This document shows, piece by piece, positions 39,982 to 45,430 of a stretch of 64,000 nucleotides of DNA. How positions within the stretch are numbered: position 1 is the first letter of the stretch; every line of letters starts with the position of its first letter. The DNA comes from Halorientalis sp. LT38 (GTDB lineage Archaea; Halobacteriota; Halobacteria; Halobacteriales; Haloarculaceae). A program made the translations under genes and the position numbers. Location of the stretch: assembly GCF_037031225.1 (NCBI RefSeq), contig NZ_JAYEZN010000001.1, positions 434,001-498,000 on the forward strand, written 5' to 3'. The notes under the pieces were generated by a model, which made no database searches, was not told the DNA's origin, and saw only the letters and a list, made by a program, of their open reading frames with translations.

Positions 39982-40056
39982 GCTCCGATGGTGTAGTCCG
40001 GCCAATCATATTGCCCTCTCACGGCAATGACCAGGGTTCAAATCCCTGTCGGAGCA
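39982..40056 (+). tRNA. tRNA-Glu (anticodon CTC)
   Basis: The 75-base gene folds as a full cloverleaf: acceptor GCTCCGA with TCGGAGC and discriminator A, D-arm GTG/CAT, anticodon stem TTGCC/GGCAA with loop CTCTCAC (anticodon CTC at 40018-40020), and T-arm CAGGG/CCCTG with loop TTCAAAT. CCA is not encoded. The 3' half is the parent of the two downstream copies described separately. Confidence 0.93.
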
Positions 40057-40290
40057 TTGCAGCGAGCGTCACACTGTGACGCGAGCGAAACGCGCACGTC
40101 AGGGATTTGAATCACGCGAGACGAACGGAGTGAGTCTCGCCATCGGGTTCAAATCCCTGTCGGAGCATTTTGCTGCGAACAATTCGTGAGTAGCAAATGC
40201 GACTCAGCGGGATTTGAAGTAGAGAAATCGCAACCTGCGAGCGGTAGCGAGCAGGTCCGGTTTCGCGTGGTTCAAATCCCTGTCGGAGCA
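40057..40290 (+). repeat. Two-unit palindromic array derived from the tRNA-Glu 3' end
   Basis: After the tRNA come two units of about 111 and 123 bases (40057-40167 and 40168-40290). Each ends with an exact copy of the tRNA 3' end (23 bases at 40145-40167, 22 bases at 40269-40290). Each also contains, earlier, the reverse complement of the T-arm (cagggatttgaa at 40100-40111; cgggatttgaa at 40208-40218), and between them a hairpin (gcgagac/gtctcgc, 40116-40140; cctgc/gcagg, 40234-40255). A first hairpin opens each unit (gcgtcac/gtgacgc, 40066-40082; tttgct/agcaaa, about 40169-40197). The hairpins differ in sequence but the order is the same. They resemble stacked attachment sites or a small tRNA-derived mobile repeat; no integrase gene is nearby. 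Confidence 0.7.
40066..40082 (+). terminator. Hairpin after tRNA-Glu
   Basis: gcgtcac and gtgacgc pair perfectly around a 3-base loop, 9 bases after the tRNA. The core matches the perfect 12-bp-arm hairpin at 58127-58152. It may end the tRNA transcript or be part of the array unit. Confidence 0.45.
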
Positions 40291-40465
40291 CTTCTGTCGG
40301 TCACTGAGTGGCCCCAGATTCGACTCTCGACCCCTCGATAACCAGTTGCCTGATTATCACGTTCGCGGGGGCTTCATACACGTGTTATCACATGTGATCT
40401 TCGACCGGTCCGGGAGAATCTCTTTTGTAATCGCACGACTGCAGCGGGGCGGATCGTTCCCGAAA

Positions 40466-40510: not shown

Positions 40511-43500
40511 ATGAGAGAGAGGGGAGTCGAGTTTCGGGGGGATCCACGCGGGATATCGAACCTCGTCGGGGTCGTTTTGCTGATCGGCATGGCGATCACG
40601 GGGGCGGTGCTGGTCGCGGTTATCGGCGCGTCCGCACTGAACGAGACCGAACAGGAGAGTCGAATGCAGGTGGCCGAGCAGTCGATGCAGGAGGTATCGT
40701 CGCAGTTTCACGAGTTGAAGGTCACCGGCGAAGGGGGACGGGCGTCGCTGACGCTCCCGGACGACACCAGCGGAGACATCTCGGTGGTGAACACGACGAC
40801 CGTGACGCTCCTCGCGAACGGGAACGAGAGCTGTTCGAGCGGCCCCGTCCCGATGGGGACGGTCCTGTACGACAATCCCGAGGAGGGGATCGTGGGGTAC
40901 GAGGCAGGGGGGATCTGGCGCCAGACCGACGACGGAAGCACGTGGATGGTCTCCTCGCCCGACGTGGAGTACCGGAACGGACGACTGGCGCTCCAGATCT
41001 CGGACATGCAGGGCTTCGTGTCCGGTAACGGAAAGGTCTCGGCGGCGGTCGACGAGCGAGAATCCGCCTGGGAGAGCGACAACATCAGCCGGGCGCTGTC
41101 CGTCAACCGCACGGCCGAAGAGTTGCGTAACGGCGTCGGGCCGGTTAGGGAGACCTGCGAGCCCAGCAACGTCGAGAACGTCACGGTCAGCATCCGGGGC
41201 AGTCAGTTCGCACGCGCGTGGTACAATTTCGCCACGCAGAACTTCGACGACCGACTGGTGACGGTAGAGCAGCGCTCGGTGATCGAGGCCGGCGACCCGA
41301 TCAACATCACGTACCTGCTCGGCGAGCATCGCGATCCCGAGTACCAGATCACCGACGTCGACGCGCCCGCCTCGACCCGCGAGGGGACCGACATGACGAT
41401 GGACGTGACCGTCGAGAACGTCGGTGATTTCAACGGGACCGCGCCGATCACGCTGTACAACGAGACCGGGGGAATCGCGCCCGTGGAACTCGCTACTACG
41501 AGCCAGCGTATCGTCGCTGGCACTAGCGAGACGGTGACGCTCACCGTGGAGGCGGCGGACTTGAACTCGGGCAGCGCGGGCGCGGCGAACTACACGACGA
41601 GAGTGGAGACACCCGACGACAACGTGCCGGTCGAGTTCGTCGTCGGGAGCGGCTCGCCTGCGGATCTGGGCATCCAATCGCTGAGTTCCCCGGCCGACGC
41701 GGAACTGGGGGACGACCGGGACCTGAGCGTGACCGTCGAAAACACGGGTGGAACGCCGGCCGGCGAAACCGTGCGGTTCTACTACGCGGACGAGTTCAAG
41801 GACGAAGCATACGTGTGGCTCGACGACGGTGACACGGAAACCCTCAGCTTCGACGTCCCGACGACCCGGGAGGGGGACATCCCGCTGAAGGTGAACTTCT
41901 CGAGCCCCAGCGAACCCGATCACGAGCGAACCACGACCATCACGATCGGCGACCTCCCGGACTTCGAACTCGAGAGCGCTACCGGACCGTTCCGGGTCAC
42001 GCAGAACACCCCCTACGAGATCGACGCGACCGTCGAGAACGAAGGGTCGACGGAGGGGACGCGTCCAGTCGAGATCGAAGTCCGGAACGCCTCGAATCCG
42101 GGCGATACGGTCTACACCGACATCCGACCGCTGACCCTCACCCCACACGAGACCCGGACGATCACGTTCCGCAACGACAGCGGCATCGCAGCGCCGGGTC
42201 TCTACGAGTACGTCGTCGAAACCGACGGTGACACGGAGACCGGGACGTTCAGGGTCGGATCGATCGCCGAACCGTTCTTCGTGACGACGCAGGCCACGAC
42301 CGACCGCTCGGTCGTCCAGGAGGATGGCAGCTTCAATATCACAGGCGCGGTCCAGAACGCGGGCGGCACGAACGGGACCCAAGAGGTGACGGTGTCGTTC
42401 GAGGGCAGCGAGATCGGCTCCGAATCGATCACGCTCACGCCCGGTGAAGCCGCAAACGTCGGACCGTTCAGGAAGTCGCTCGCCGGCTCGGCGCCGGGGA
42501 CGTACGAGTACACGATCGAGAGCGAAAACACCTCGGTGTCCGGACAGATCCTGGTGGTCGAGGAGTTCGACGGCGACTTCGACAGCGGCGACTCCACGAT
42601 CGCGATCAACCAGAGCATCACGGCCCGGCTGACCGTCCTGGGAACCGAACTGAGCGGGATCGCGGAGGCGGAGCACTGTGAAACGAGGGGCAACTGGTGG
42701 GACGGATATTACGAGGTCTGTGAACCGGGGGAAATCATCCGCGCCCCGGTCGAGATGGCAATCTACACCGACAATGCGACCGCGCCGGACACCTACCACC
42801 GCGTCTGGGGCGACAAGGACCTGAACACGCCGCAGACGCGGCGCGATCAGATCGACGGCGGGGACTACCTGAGCAAGGAGATCACGGTGACGGCGACCGA
42901 GGACTCCCCCACGAACGTCTCCGTCTTCGCCGAGTCGTTCACGTGCGATCACTTCGACGGGACGGGCCTCACCCGCCAGGTCGACGGATACGGCGAACTC
43001 GAGGGGATGAAGTGCGACGATCCGGACCCTGACTCACGGATCGACATCAACCAGGACGAGAACCCATCGAACCTCGTCATCCGCGAGGACGGTGAGACGG
43101 TCCCCGCGTTCGGGCAGGCCGGTGCAGAGCAGCGCGACGTCCGGGAGATCCTGGGCGACCGCATCACCGACGAGGGCGTCCTGCAACTCGAGGACGACCA
43201 GCTCGCACTGTTCTACGAGCTCTCGCAGGAGAACGCCGATCCCGACGACGCGATGGGCACGAACGACGACCCGGACTACAACGACGCAGTCGTGCTGTTC
43301 GAAGTCGTCGCCGAGAACCACACCCCCAGCGTCCCGGGCCTATCGGACGTCGTGATCAACGACACGACCGGGCCGGCCACGGTGAATCCCCCTTACGACG
43401 ACTCCTTCGAGGTCGAGGTCTGGAACCGCGGCGGTGACGAGGTCGACGACGCGGTGAACCTTGCGGTCGACGGCTCCGAGCGGGCCAGCGTCGACGTCTC

Positions 43501-44401
43501 CCTCGACGGCAGGGAGAGCAAGTGGGTCGAAGTCGACGTTCCGAGCGGCCTCAGTTCGGGGAACCACGAGATCGAGTTCAGCGTCGACAGCGACGAGAAC
43601 GAGACCGCCACGCGCAACCTCTACGTCGGCGAGGCCACCGGGCCGTACTTCCTGCCGAACGTCGAGTACTACGACGAAATCGTCCGCCCCGGCGAGTTGG
43701 CCGAAGTCAGAGCGCACGTGACCAACGTCGGCGACAACCAGAGCACGCAGGACGTGACCGCGAACGTCGTCGGGGTTTCGGGCGATCTCGACATCGGCGA
43801 CGTCGTCGATCCGGACCAGGAGTGGTCGGACCTCACGCTCGGCTCTGGATCGGACGACATCCACTCCTTCGCCTTCGAGTCCAGCGCCGAGGGGCAGATG
43901 ACCATCGAGGTGGCCACCGAGAACGCGTCCACGCGGGTCAACGTAACCGTCATGGACCCACGGCTCGAGATCGAGCGCGCGATCGTCGGCGACCAGACCT
44001 ACCGCGAGGGCGATACGATCGTCAGCTCGAACCTCGAGTCGCTGACCGCGGACGTGTCGAACCCCGCGGCGATCAGCCGGTCCGGGAACGTGGAGCTGTA
44101 CATGCGCGAGAGCGACAGCGGGGCGTCGTTCACGCACATCGACACCTCCAGCGACGTGACCCTGAACGGTAATCGAACGCTCGTGAAACTGGATCTCACC
44201 GGGGCCAATCCCCCGCTCGGACCGGACGTCAACAGCCAGACGGGGCTCTACGACTACGAACTCAGGACGGACCCGGACGGCGTGTCGGGCACCGACGACG
44301 TCCAGTCGGGCGAGATCCAGATCATCACCCCGGAGGACTCGACCACCTCGACGGACCCTGACTACATCACGGTCGACATGAACCAGATAGAACTCAGCTG
44401 A
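40511..44401 (+). CDS. Giant surface protein with pilin-like N-terminus and CARDB-type repeats
   Basis: The 1296-residue protein begins MRERGVEFRGDPRGISNLVGVVLLIGMAITGAVLVAVIGASAL in two parts: a short basic head and a hydrophobic segment like those of haloarchaeal pilin-like proteins, followed by EQESRMQVAEQSM. The rest is a series of CARDB-like beta domains, each with a phrase such as VTVENVGDFNGTAPITLYN, VTVENTGGTPAGETV, TVENEGSTEGTRPV, AVQNAGGTNGTQEV, EVWNRGGDEVDDAV and HVTNVGDNQSTQDV. Cysteines (EHCETRGNWW...YEVCEPGE and FTCDHFDG...MKCDD) sit in an insert of about residues 718-840. NxT/S sites are numerous. It is likely anchored by its N-terminal helix and exposed as an adhesin or pilus-associated protein. 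Confidence 0.75.
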   Translation: MRERGVEFRGDPRGISNLVGVVLLIGMAITGAVLVAVIGASALNETEQESRMQVAEQSMQEVSSQFHELKVTGEGGRASLTLPDDTSGDISVVNTTTVTLLANGNESCSSGPVPMGTVLYDNPEEGIVGYEAGGIWRQTDDGSTWMVSSPDVEYRNGRLALQISDMQGFVSGNGKVSAAVDERESAWESDNISRALSVNRTAEELRNGVGPVRETCEPSNVENVTVSIRGSQFARAWYNFATQNFDDRLVTVEQRSVIEAGDPINITYLLGEHRDPEYQITDVDAPASTREGTDMTMDVTVENVGDFNGTAPITLYNETGGIAPVELATTSQRIVAGTSETVTLTVEAADLNSGSAGAANYTTRVETPDDNVPVEFVVGSGSPADLGIQSLSSPADAELGDDRDLSVTVENTGGTPAGETVRFYYADEFKDEAYVWLDDGDTETLSFDVPTTREGDIPLKVNFSSPSEPDHERTTTITIGDLPDFELESATGPFRVTQNTPYEIDATVENEGSTEGTRPVEIEVRNASNPGDTVYTDIRPLTLTPHETRTITFRNDSGIAAPGLYEYVVETDGDTETGTFRVGSIAEPFFVTTQATTDRSVVQEDGSFNITGAVQNAGGTNGTQEVTVSFEGSEIGSESITLTPGEAANVGPFRKSLAGSAPGTYEYTIESENTSVSGQILVVEEFDGDFDSGDSTIAINQSITARLTVLGTELSGIAEAEHCETRGNWWDGYYEVCEPGEIIRAPVEMAIYTDNATAPDTYHRVWGDKDLNTPQTRRDQIDGGDYLSKEITVTATEDSPTNVSVFAESFTCDHFDGTGLTRQVDGYGELEGMKCDDPDPDSRIDINQDENPSNLVIREDGETVPAFGQAGAEQRDVREILGDRITDEGVLQLEDDQLALFYELSQENADPDDAMGTNDDPDYNDAVVLFEVVAENHTPSVPGLSDVVINDTTGPATVNPPYDDSFEVEVWNRGGDEVDDAVNLAVDGSERASVDVSLDGRESKWVEVDVPSGLSSGNHEIEFSVDSDENETATRNLYVGEATGPYFLPNVEYYDEIVRPGELAEVRAHVTNVGDNQSTQDVTANVVGVSGDLDIGDVVDPDQEWSDLTLGSGSDDIHSFAFESSAEGQMTIEVATENASTRVNVTVMDPRLEIERAIVGDQTYREGDTIVSSNLESLTADVSNPAAISRSGNVELYMRESDSGASFTHIDTSSDVTLNGNRTLVKLDLTGANPPLGPDVNSQTGLYDYELRTDPDGVSGTDDVQSGEIQIITPEDSTTSTDPDYITVDMNQIELS

Positions 44402-44665: not shown

Positions 44666-45430
44666 TCAGAGCAGCGTCCGGAGTTCGATCGTCGTCCGTC
44701 GGACGTACCCGCGTTCGAGACCGCCGCCGTCCCCTTCACAGGAGTACTCACCGCCGCCCTCGTCGGTCCAGCCCTCGCGCTCGAAGTATCGGCTCCAGGA
44801 GTCGGGGACCGCCGTGTCCGAGACGTCGACGGTCACCGTCTCGACGTTCGACGGGTTCCCTTCCGGGAGGTGAAGGCCGGTGTTGCTCGAATCGCGTTCG
44901 CCGAACAGTTCGAGGTTCCCCCCGGTGGAGACGCTGATGTCGCCGTCGAGTCGCGGTACCGAGACGAGTGCGGCAGCGTCGGAACAGTCGAAAACGGGCG
45001 GGTGCGTCATGACGAACCCCTGTCGCTCGTCCCGGATGACCGCGCCGCCCTCGTAGACGAGGCGAGTATCCCCCGACGACGGCTGGTACACCAGCGCGTT
45101 GACGTCGATCGTATCGGACTCGGGGGACCGCGAGGCGAACTCCACCGTGAACGTCATCGAGGAGTCGACGAGATCGATCTGACCCCCGTCGACGCCGATC
45201 TCGACAGACCGGCCCGGGACGTTCTTCCGGTGGATGTCCTCCATCGTCTCGGCGACCCCGCGCATCGACCGCTCACCGCTGTTCACCTGCTCGTTCTCCC
45301 GCAGGTCGCCCAGCGCACCGACGCCGCCGATGTAGACGATGGTAACGCCCGAGATGATGATCCCGAACGTCAGCACGAAGGCGACGACGTCGGAGACGGC
45401 CCGGTCGGAGATCGTGCGTGGTTCTGTCAT
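44666..45430 (-). CDS. Pilin-like protein, haloarchaeal DUF7289-like
   Basis: The 254-residue protein begins with a short charged head (MTEPRTISDRAVSD) and a single hydrophobic helix (VVAFVLTFGIIISGVTIVYIGG), then a beta-rich external domain. The stretch ENEQVNSGERSMRGVAETMEDIHRKNVPGR after the helix resembles the N-terminus of the giant CARDB protein. It is the last gene of the pilus operon. No catalytic motif is seen. The family name is tentative. Confidence 0.72.
   Translation of the reverse strand: MTEPRTISDRAVSDVVAFVLTFGIIISGVTIVYIGGVGALGDLRENEQVNSGERSMRGVAETMEDIHRKNVPGRSVEIGVDGGQIDLVDSSMTFTVEFASRSPESDTIDVNALVYQPSSGDTRLVYEGGAVIRDERQGFVMTHPPVFDCSDAAALVSVPRLDGDISVSTGGNLELFGERDSSNTGLHLPEGNPSNVETVTVDVSDTAVPDSWSRYFEREGWTDEGGGEYSCEGDGGGLERGYVRRTTIELRTLL

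Follow-up and report, generated by a model that had tools for sequence, protein, structure and literature searches.

Stacked copies of a putative target-matched micro-mobile element behind tRNA genes of Halobacteria

What process could leave two exact copies of the 3' end of a tRNA gene directly behind that gene, each of them preceded by an inverted copy of part of its T-arm? The question is raised by a locus of the haloarchaeon Halorientalis sp. LT38, found in a window (the whole stretch of DNA that was analyzed) of 64,000 nucleotides. The host gene, a tRNA-Glu(CTC) at 39982-40056 (ARAGORN; Rfam RF00005, 59 bits), is followed by two units, and gene and array are all on the plus strand. In both units hairpin A comes first, the inverted T-arm second and hairpin B third, and nucleotides (nt) 52-73 of the tRNA, copied exactly, come last. 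The duplicated segment is the 22-nt tail GGTTCAAATCCCTGTCGGAGCA (40035-40056), with boundaries taken from the own-match statistics of 103 units, and contains G52-G53, the T-loop, the 3' strand of the T-stem, the 3' strand of the acceptor and the discriminator. The body of the first unit, of 89 nt (40057-40145), contains hairpin A (40060-40088 by folding, an extended GCGTCAC-ACT-GTGACGC stem), the inverted T-arm CAGGGATTTGAA (40100-40111), which is the reverse complement of nt 54-65 of its own tRNA, and hairpin B, TCACGC-GAGAC-GAACGGAGTGA-GTCTC-GCCATCG (40112-40145). The first tail copy comes next (40146-40167). The second body, of 101 nt (40168-40268), repeats the design with a hairpin A formed by TTTGCTGC and GTAGCAAA (40169-40197 by folding), the inverted T-arm GGGATTTGAA (40209-40218) and a hairpin B formed by GTAGAGAAATCGC and GGTTTCGCGT that carries a tandem GA internal loop (40219-40268), and ends in the second tail copy (40269-40290).

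The tail copies are spaced by 111 and 123 nt, one interval per unit. A preliminary description of this DNA had reported two units with exact tail copies at these spacings and inverted T-arms, and hairpins unlike between the units; all of this was borne out, at the positions given above, and both hairpin pairs differ in sequence. The pattern GGGATTTGAA-N35..65-TTCAAATCCC is found twice in the window and was absent from each of 100 dinucleotide shuffles, so that the array cannot be attributed to chance. Folding, which had been proposed as a check, gave results far better than those of shuffled sequences, both as RNA (40057-40292, z = -8.6) and as DNA (39982-40292, z = -7.9). Beside the array, at 40511-44401 of the window, there is a gene for a 1296-aa protein whose domains are DUF7289 and CARDB and whose N-terminus is weakly of the archaeal type IV pilin kind, followed on the opposite strand by a DUF7289 paralogue (44666-45430).

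Using the array as query, the same design was found behind many other tRNA genes of the same genome and of the genus, each with its own tail. Among the Halobacteria, at least 183 of 242 genomes had one or more exact matches to the pattern, and the reversed-pattern control gave none. The pattern is strict and this number is therefore a minimum; one genome (G004) has units by BLAST and none by pattern. In the same phylum outside the Halobacteria, 2 of 312 genomes had the pattern, with a single match apiece. When about 85,000 named genomes were scanned, the matches listed came mostly from Halobacteria (Haloferax, Halorubrum, Natrialba, Haloarcula, Halobacterium and others). Of the haloarchaeal matches listed, only two were not directly 3' of a tRNA gene, one being beside a tRNA-like remnant and the other at the edge of its stretch. 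The units are always located on the tRNA strand, directly downstream of the gene.

For an unbiased census, all the tRNA genes found in three genomes of three families were inspected, regardless of pattern match, and a copy of the own tail was counted when at least 16 of 20 positions agreed within 640 nt downstream. Own-tail copies followed 17 of 41, 31 of 46 and 22 of 41 tRNA genes respectively. The tails of other tRNAs matched in 2 of 760, 1 of 964 and 2 of 688 tests (5/2412, 0.2%), and reversed DNA of the three genomes gave no tail match. By eye, and including interrupted and decayed copies, about 24 of the 43 tRNA genes of the LT38 genome have units, and a second Halorientalis species has them at 24 of 42. 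Nearly all isotypes are affected, with up to five or six copies per array. The search of haloarchaeal genomes suggested in the preliminary description was positive in most of the Halobacteria genomes scanned, and so was the check that it proposed for units matched to the 3' ends of different tRNA genes. Of the two contrary outcomes that it had named neither was seen: the inverted segments proved to be conserved, and lone integrase scars do not describe the units.

Over 103 units, the match to the own tRNA starts at nt 52, is hardly seen at nt 51 and earlier, and ends at the discriminator; CCA follows only 1 of 110 tail copies. The bodies are placed exactly between nt 73, either of the tRNA or of the preceding copy, and the nt 52-73 duplicate. 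They measure 45-287 nt (median 104), with no gene inside, and the tail copies are nearly all 80-180 nt apart, with only two gaps larger than 1 kb. The inverted segment corresponds to the own nt 54-64 in reverse complement, and the own-match signal stops at nt 65. Behind tRNAs with G57 in place of A57 it carries the matching base in 22 of 22 units, and at other variant positions it follows the own tRNA in 6 of 7 (nt 59) and 10 of 16 cases (nt 62); permutation gave p < 0.0005 for the own match over nt 57 to 64.

The hairpins have variable sequence and maintained pairing. Two sub-families were out of register in the alignment (A1) and co-variation was gauged by swapping arms between units: the longest complementary run averaged 4.75 with the own arm and 3.64 with swapped arms. 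One hairpin B family keeps constant ends, TCACG ... CATCGGG, with a stem altered on both sides (GAGAC/GTCTC, AAACGC/GCGTTT, AAATCC/GGATTT and CAGACC/GGTCTG). The hairpin B of the first unit belongs to a family with members also behind Ala, Gly, Arg, Ser and Asp tRNA genes. Terminal inverted repeats were not in excess (3.45 nt for own ends, 3.44 nt for swapped ends), and none reached 8 nt.

Several related structures were seen on the way. A second, smaller type of unit, which measures about 50 nt (hairpin - GAC/CGT - hairpin - TCC), interrupts tail copies between TTCAAAT and CCC behind Asp, Gly and Lys tRNA genes, and in some arrays it bears the acceptor strand, and not the T-arm, in inverted form. 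The tail-copy variant TTCACAATCC, with an extra T-loop base, recurs behind different tRNA genes (Thr, Arg and Phe units). In the LT38 genome the genes for tRNA-Ala(CGC), Arg(CCG) and Pro(GGG) have no units and are followed by another palindromic element that they share (CCTTTTTCTTCGTCGGG ... CTCGAAAAACGTGGGCGAAAAA ...). Behind tRNA-Cys there is a solitary hairpin A, with neither inverted T-arm nor tail copy, which may be what is left of a unit or may belong to the trailer natively. The module GARCGNAGYGAG, a triloop hairpin with tandem GA pairs, is present at 125 places of this genome, about twice its reversed control. Some of them are not near tRNA genes, in keeping with a building block of haloarchaeal hairpins in general.

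How do the arrays grow? Plain duplication of units was rejected, with near-identical neighbours in only 2 of 97 adjacent pairs. In 84 of the 97 pairs the neighbouring bodies were no more alike than random ones, and in 41 of those both tails were exact. In arrays of two or more copies the one proximal to the tRNA was better preserved than the distal one (27 vs 5 arrays, p = 1e-4). This fits independent insertions that would recur beside the tRNA and shift the older units outward. Bodies also appear to travel: up to 94% identity over both hairpins was found behind Lys(UUU), Arg(CCG) and Arg(UCU) genes of a single genome, each with the local tail. When units of the censused genomes that share a hairpin B behind different tRNA genes were compared in a swap test, the inverted segment matched its own tRNA at 84 differing positions and that of the sibling at 12 (p = 2e-14); at nt 57, 59 and 62 the figures were 45 and 0. 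In a larger set, siblings with both hairpins in common were 7.5% different in hairpin B and 49% different in the inverted flank (nt 61-65). Own matching in spite of shared hairpins indicates that the inverted segment is remade for each target, during insertion or soon after, and the route may be copying, hairpin-templated correction or selection. Some of the resemblance between hairpins B may have arisen by convergence, if few structures are in use, and the movement of tail plus body could be, in part, gene conversion between pre-existing units.

Turnover within the genus is fast. Over 38 isoacceptors of two Halorientalis species, units were present in both species at 12, in only one at 14 and in neither at 12, and only 5 of the 12 doubly occupied isoacceptors had recognisably orthologous bodies. 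A mobile element agrees with these figures better than a conserved function does. Among very close strains no clean pair of empty and filled sites was found. At Leu-CAG the two Halorientalis species differ by an inverted T-arm, a hairpin B and a tail copy, with hairpin A kept in both, a difference that could equally be a deletion.

We have also asked which of the two strands is the folding one. Among the 2x2 internal loops seen when the units were folded with Watson-Crick pairs, 142 were GA/GA and none was TC/TC. Single-base mismatches were similarly biased (GG 28 vs CC 2, TT 29 vs AA 4, GT 48 vs AC 22), and the segment formed by inverted T, hairpin B and T was more stable in sense than in antisense in 74 of 88 non-tied cases. 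The loop and mismatch biases indicate that the strand carrying the tRNA is the one adapted to folding, either as RNA or as single-stranded DNA. This argues against a site acting only as duplex DNA, and also against a purely mutational origin, in which template switching during replication at a quasi-palindromic T-arm gives both the direct and the inverted copies, slippage and the correction of palindromes account for the remainder, and no mobile element is involved. Such an origin accounts for the local source of the sequences, the own matching of both copies and the compensating stem changes, and the T-arm of this tRNA-Glu, GGGTTCAAATCCC, is nearly palindromic by itself. However, it leaves unexplained not only the strong strand asymmetry but also the bodies common to different tRNA genes and species, the unrelated bodies of neighbouring units and the restriction to one class, and we consider it the least probable of the explanations weighed here.

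The adaptation of the sense strand has a different meaning if pre-tRNA transcripts include the units as 3' trailers, with the inverted T-arm and the T-arm copy serving the processing or regulation of the tRNA as a switch or decoy, and with pairing and own-tail identity maintained by selection on the RNA. This functional RNA is the main rival to a mobile element. The constant location of the units on the tRNA strand, directly downstream, speaks for it, and small RNAs derived from pre-tRNA 3' trailers have been reported in Haloferax volcanii (PMC3544259, citing Heyer et al. 2012). Against it stand the fast turnover between the two Halorientalis species, the many essential tRNA genes with no units and the decay of distal copies. 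Neither does a known RNA family cover the units: in Rfam only the tRNA itself was above threshold. We regard a trailer function as possible but unlikely.

The duplication of a tRNA 3' end is also the familiar signature of integrases, and stacked attachment sites had been offered as one reading of the array. The orthologous tRNA-Glu(CTC) of Halorientalis marina provides a direct comparison. There, an island of about 73 kb (G002:C1, about 1672850-1745560) has a tyrosine integrase (PF00589) gene that begins 194 nt behind the tRNA, and its att is 42 nt long. The unit is found past the distal att, indicating that it is chromosomal and separate from the island. Integrase scars were rejected on these grounds, and the reading as stacked attachment sites of ordinary integrative elements was left without support. 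Nor was any integrase or cargo seen between the tail repeats in relatives, and gene cassettes were discarded, given the spacings of nearly always 80-180 nt. Carriage by viruses or plasmids was also rejected, pattern and BLAST searches being nearly empty: phage records had no pattern match, the single viral contig matched was AT-rich and unrelated, and the first search of plasmid records gave two matches, both on very large replicons. The 987-kb plasmid of Natrinema thermotolerans has a unit behind a tRNA-Glu-like gene that carries an insert and a mismatched acceptor 5' end.

There is a broader version of this idea, in which the units are stacked att sites of integrase-borne elements (at the T-loop sublocation) or sites of an integron-like system with folded single strands. 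Some tyrosine integrases make their crossover within the block from the T-loop to the 3' end, imperfect strand-specific hairpins resemble folded integron sites, and each of the 12 genomes tested had tyrosine recombinases, whether or not it matched the pattern. One rearrangement also speaks for it: at tRNA-Ser(UGA), the hairpin B between the inverted T-arm and the T-arm copy is inverted in Haloferax denitrificans relative to H. prahovense, as if by recombination between the two inverted sites. But a conservative integrase would leave the donor tail in the tRNA and give rise to chimeric tRNAs whenever the element moved to another tRNA, and no donor tail carried into a target was seen: sibling bodies behind different tRNAs have the local tail each, and foreign tails remained at the 5 of 2412 tests of the census. 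Together with the H. marina island, the spacings too short for cassettes and the near absence from viruses and plasmids, this makes the idea improbable.

We have searched for the enzyme that moves the units among Y1 (IS200) transposases, Cas1 and tyrosine recombinases and found none that could be assigned. The Y1 transposase (PF01797) was present in 9 of the 12 genomes tested and had no match in the LT38 genome; Cas1 (PF01867) was found neither there nor in a second unit-bearing genome (G008). IS605 and Cas1 were rejected as necessary partners, both being absent from the LT38 genome. More than 20 tRNA genes are clustered within 4 kb at G006:C1:2240734-2244715, in what is probably a provirus.

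Overall, we favor, with a probability of roughly 0.6, that the array behind tRNA-Glu(CTC) consists of two stacked copies of a non-autonomous micro-mobile element with a body of about 80-180 nt, widespread in Halobacteria, that duplicates nt 52-73 and has a target-matched inverted segment. Sequence comparison shows duplication of the own tail, strand-specific folding and matching to the target, and points to mobility. The small non-autonomous tRNA-derived repeat of the preliminary description is well supported in this sense, being class-wide, matched to the own tRNA and with bodies common to different tRNA genes. In the mechanism that we propose, a folded single-stranded copy of the element (RNA or ssDNA) would be inserted at the tRNA-proximal T-arm, its inverted segment pairing with nt 54-64. 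The target strands would be cut some 20-22 nt apart, at nt 52/53 and just past nt 73, so that fill-in of the staggered cuts would duplicate the tail and leave the tRNA intact. The inverted segment would be matched to the target by copying at insertion, or by hairpin-templated correction soon after, and the enzyme would be supplied in trans. More tentatively, the units may represent mobile elements of a new class, which would move as folded single strands, perhaps of RNA, and would be led to tRNA genes by an internal guide complementary to the T-arm that is rewritten from each target. An element of this type would re-learn its address at every jump.

We found no earlier description of such units in Rfam or in the open-access literature searched, and no family described in that literature fits them. 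Yet these arrays follow roughly one tRNA gene in two in a well-studied archaeal class, Haloferax species included. They account for many partial tRNA copies in haloarchaeal genomes that would otherwise be taken for integration scars. Should the units be mobile, they would imply an unfamiliar machinery, which recognises an exact site in tRNA genes, duplicates 22 nt and rewrites a segment to match the target; such a machinery would be of interest for placing insertions behind tRNA genes. Should they act as RNA instead, they would be a large unrecognised layer of tRNA 3' biology.

Among the closest parallels are the haloarchaeal palindrome-associated elements (PATEs), which are related to IS605-type transposons and make no target duplication (PMC3119063). 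They are also short and non-coding, with palindromes near their ends, and the units share with them near-terminal palindromes on one strand (hairpins A and B, adapted in the sense strand); strand-specific hairpins would suit a route through ssDNA. Unlike PATEs, every unit has the 22-nt duplication of nt 52-73, the units are only found behind tRNA genes, their inverted segment is matched to the target and the LT38 genome is devoid of Y1 transposase. MITEs and other small mobile repeats are likewise short and non-autonomous and duplicate their target, although 22 nt is far above what is typical, and the units have no terminal inverted repeats and a single target site within tRNA genes. The integrative elements and islands that occupy tRNA genes, with SNJ2- and HF2-type tyrosine integrases, also duplicate the tRNA 3' end and leave the tRNA intact. 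However, they have integrase, cargo and longer att sequences (42 nt in H. marina; 43 nt in Haloquadratum, PMC3119063), all of which the units lack. CRISPR arrays and casposons resemble them in the duplication of a repeat at each insertion and in growth at one end, and casposons are found at tRNA genes. In the units, though, the inserts are one structured family instead of spacers, there are no terminal inverted repeats and the LT38 genome has no Cas1. Integron attC arrays are polar as well, with imperfect, strand-specific folded hairpins between direct repeats, but the units contain no cassettes, no integron integrase was found nearby and their repeat is the tail of a tRNA. Finally, the folding of the sense strand would be compatible with a tRNA-derived retroposon of the SINE-like type.
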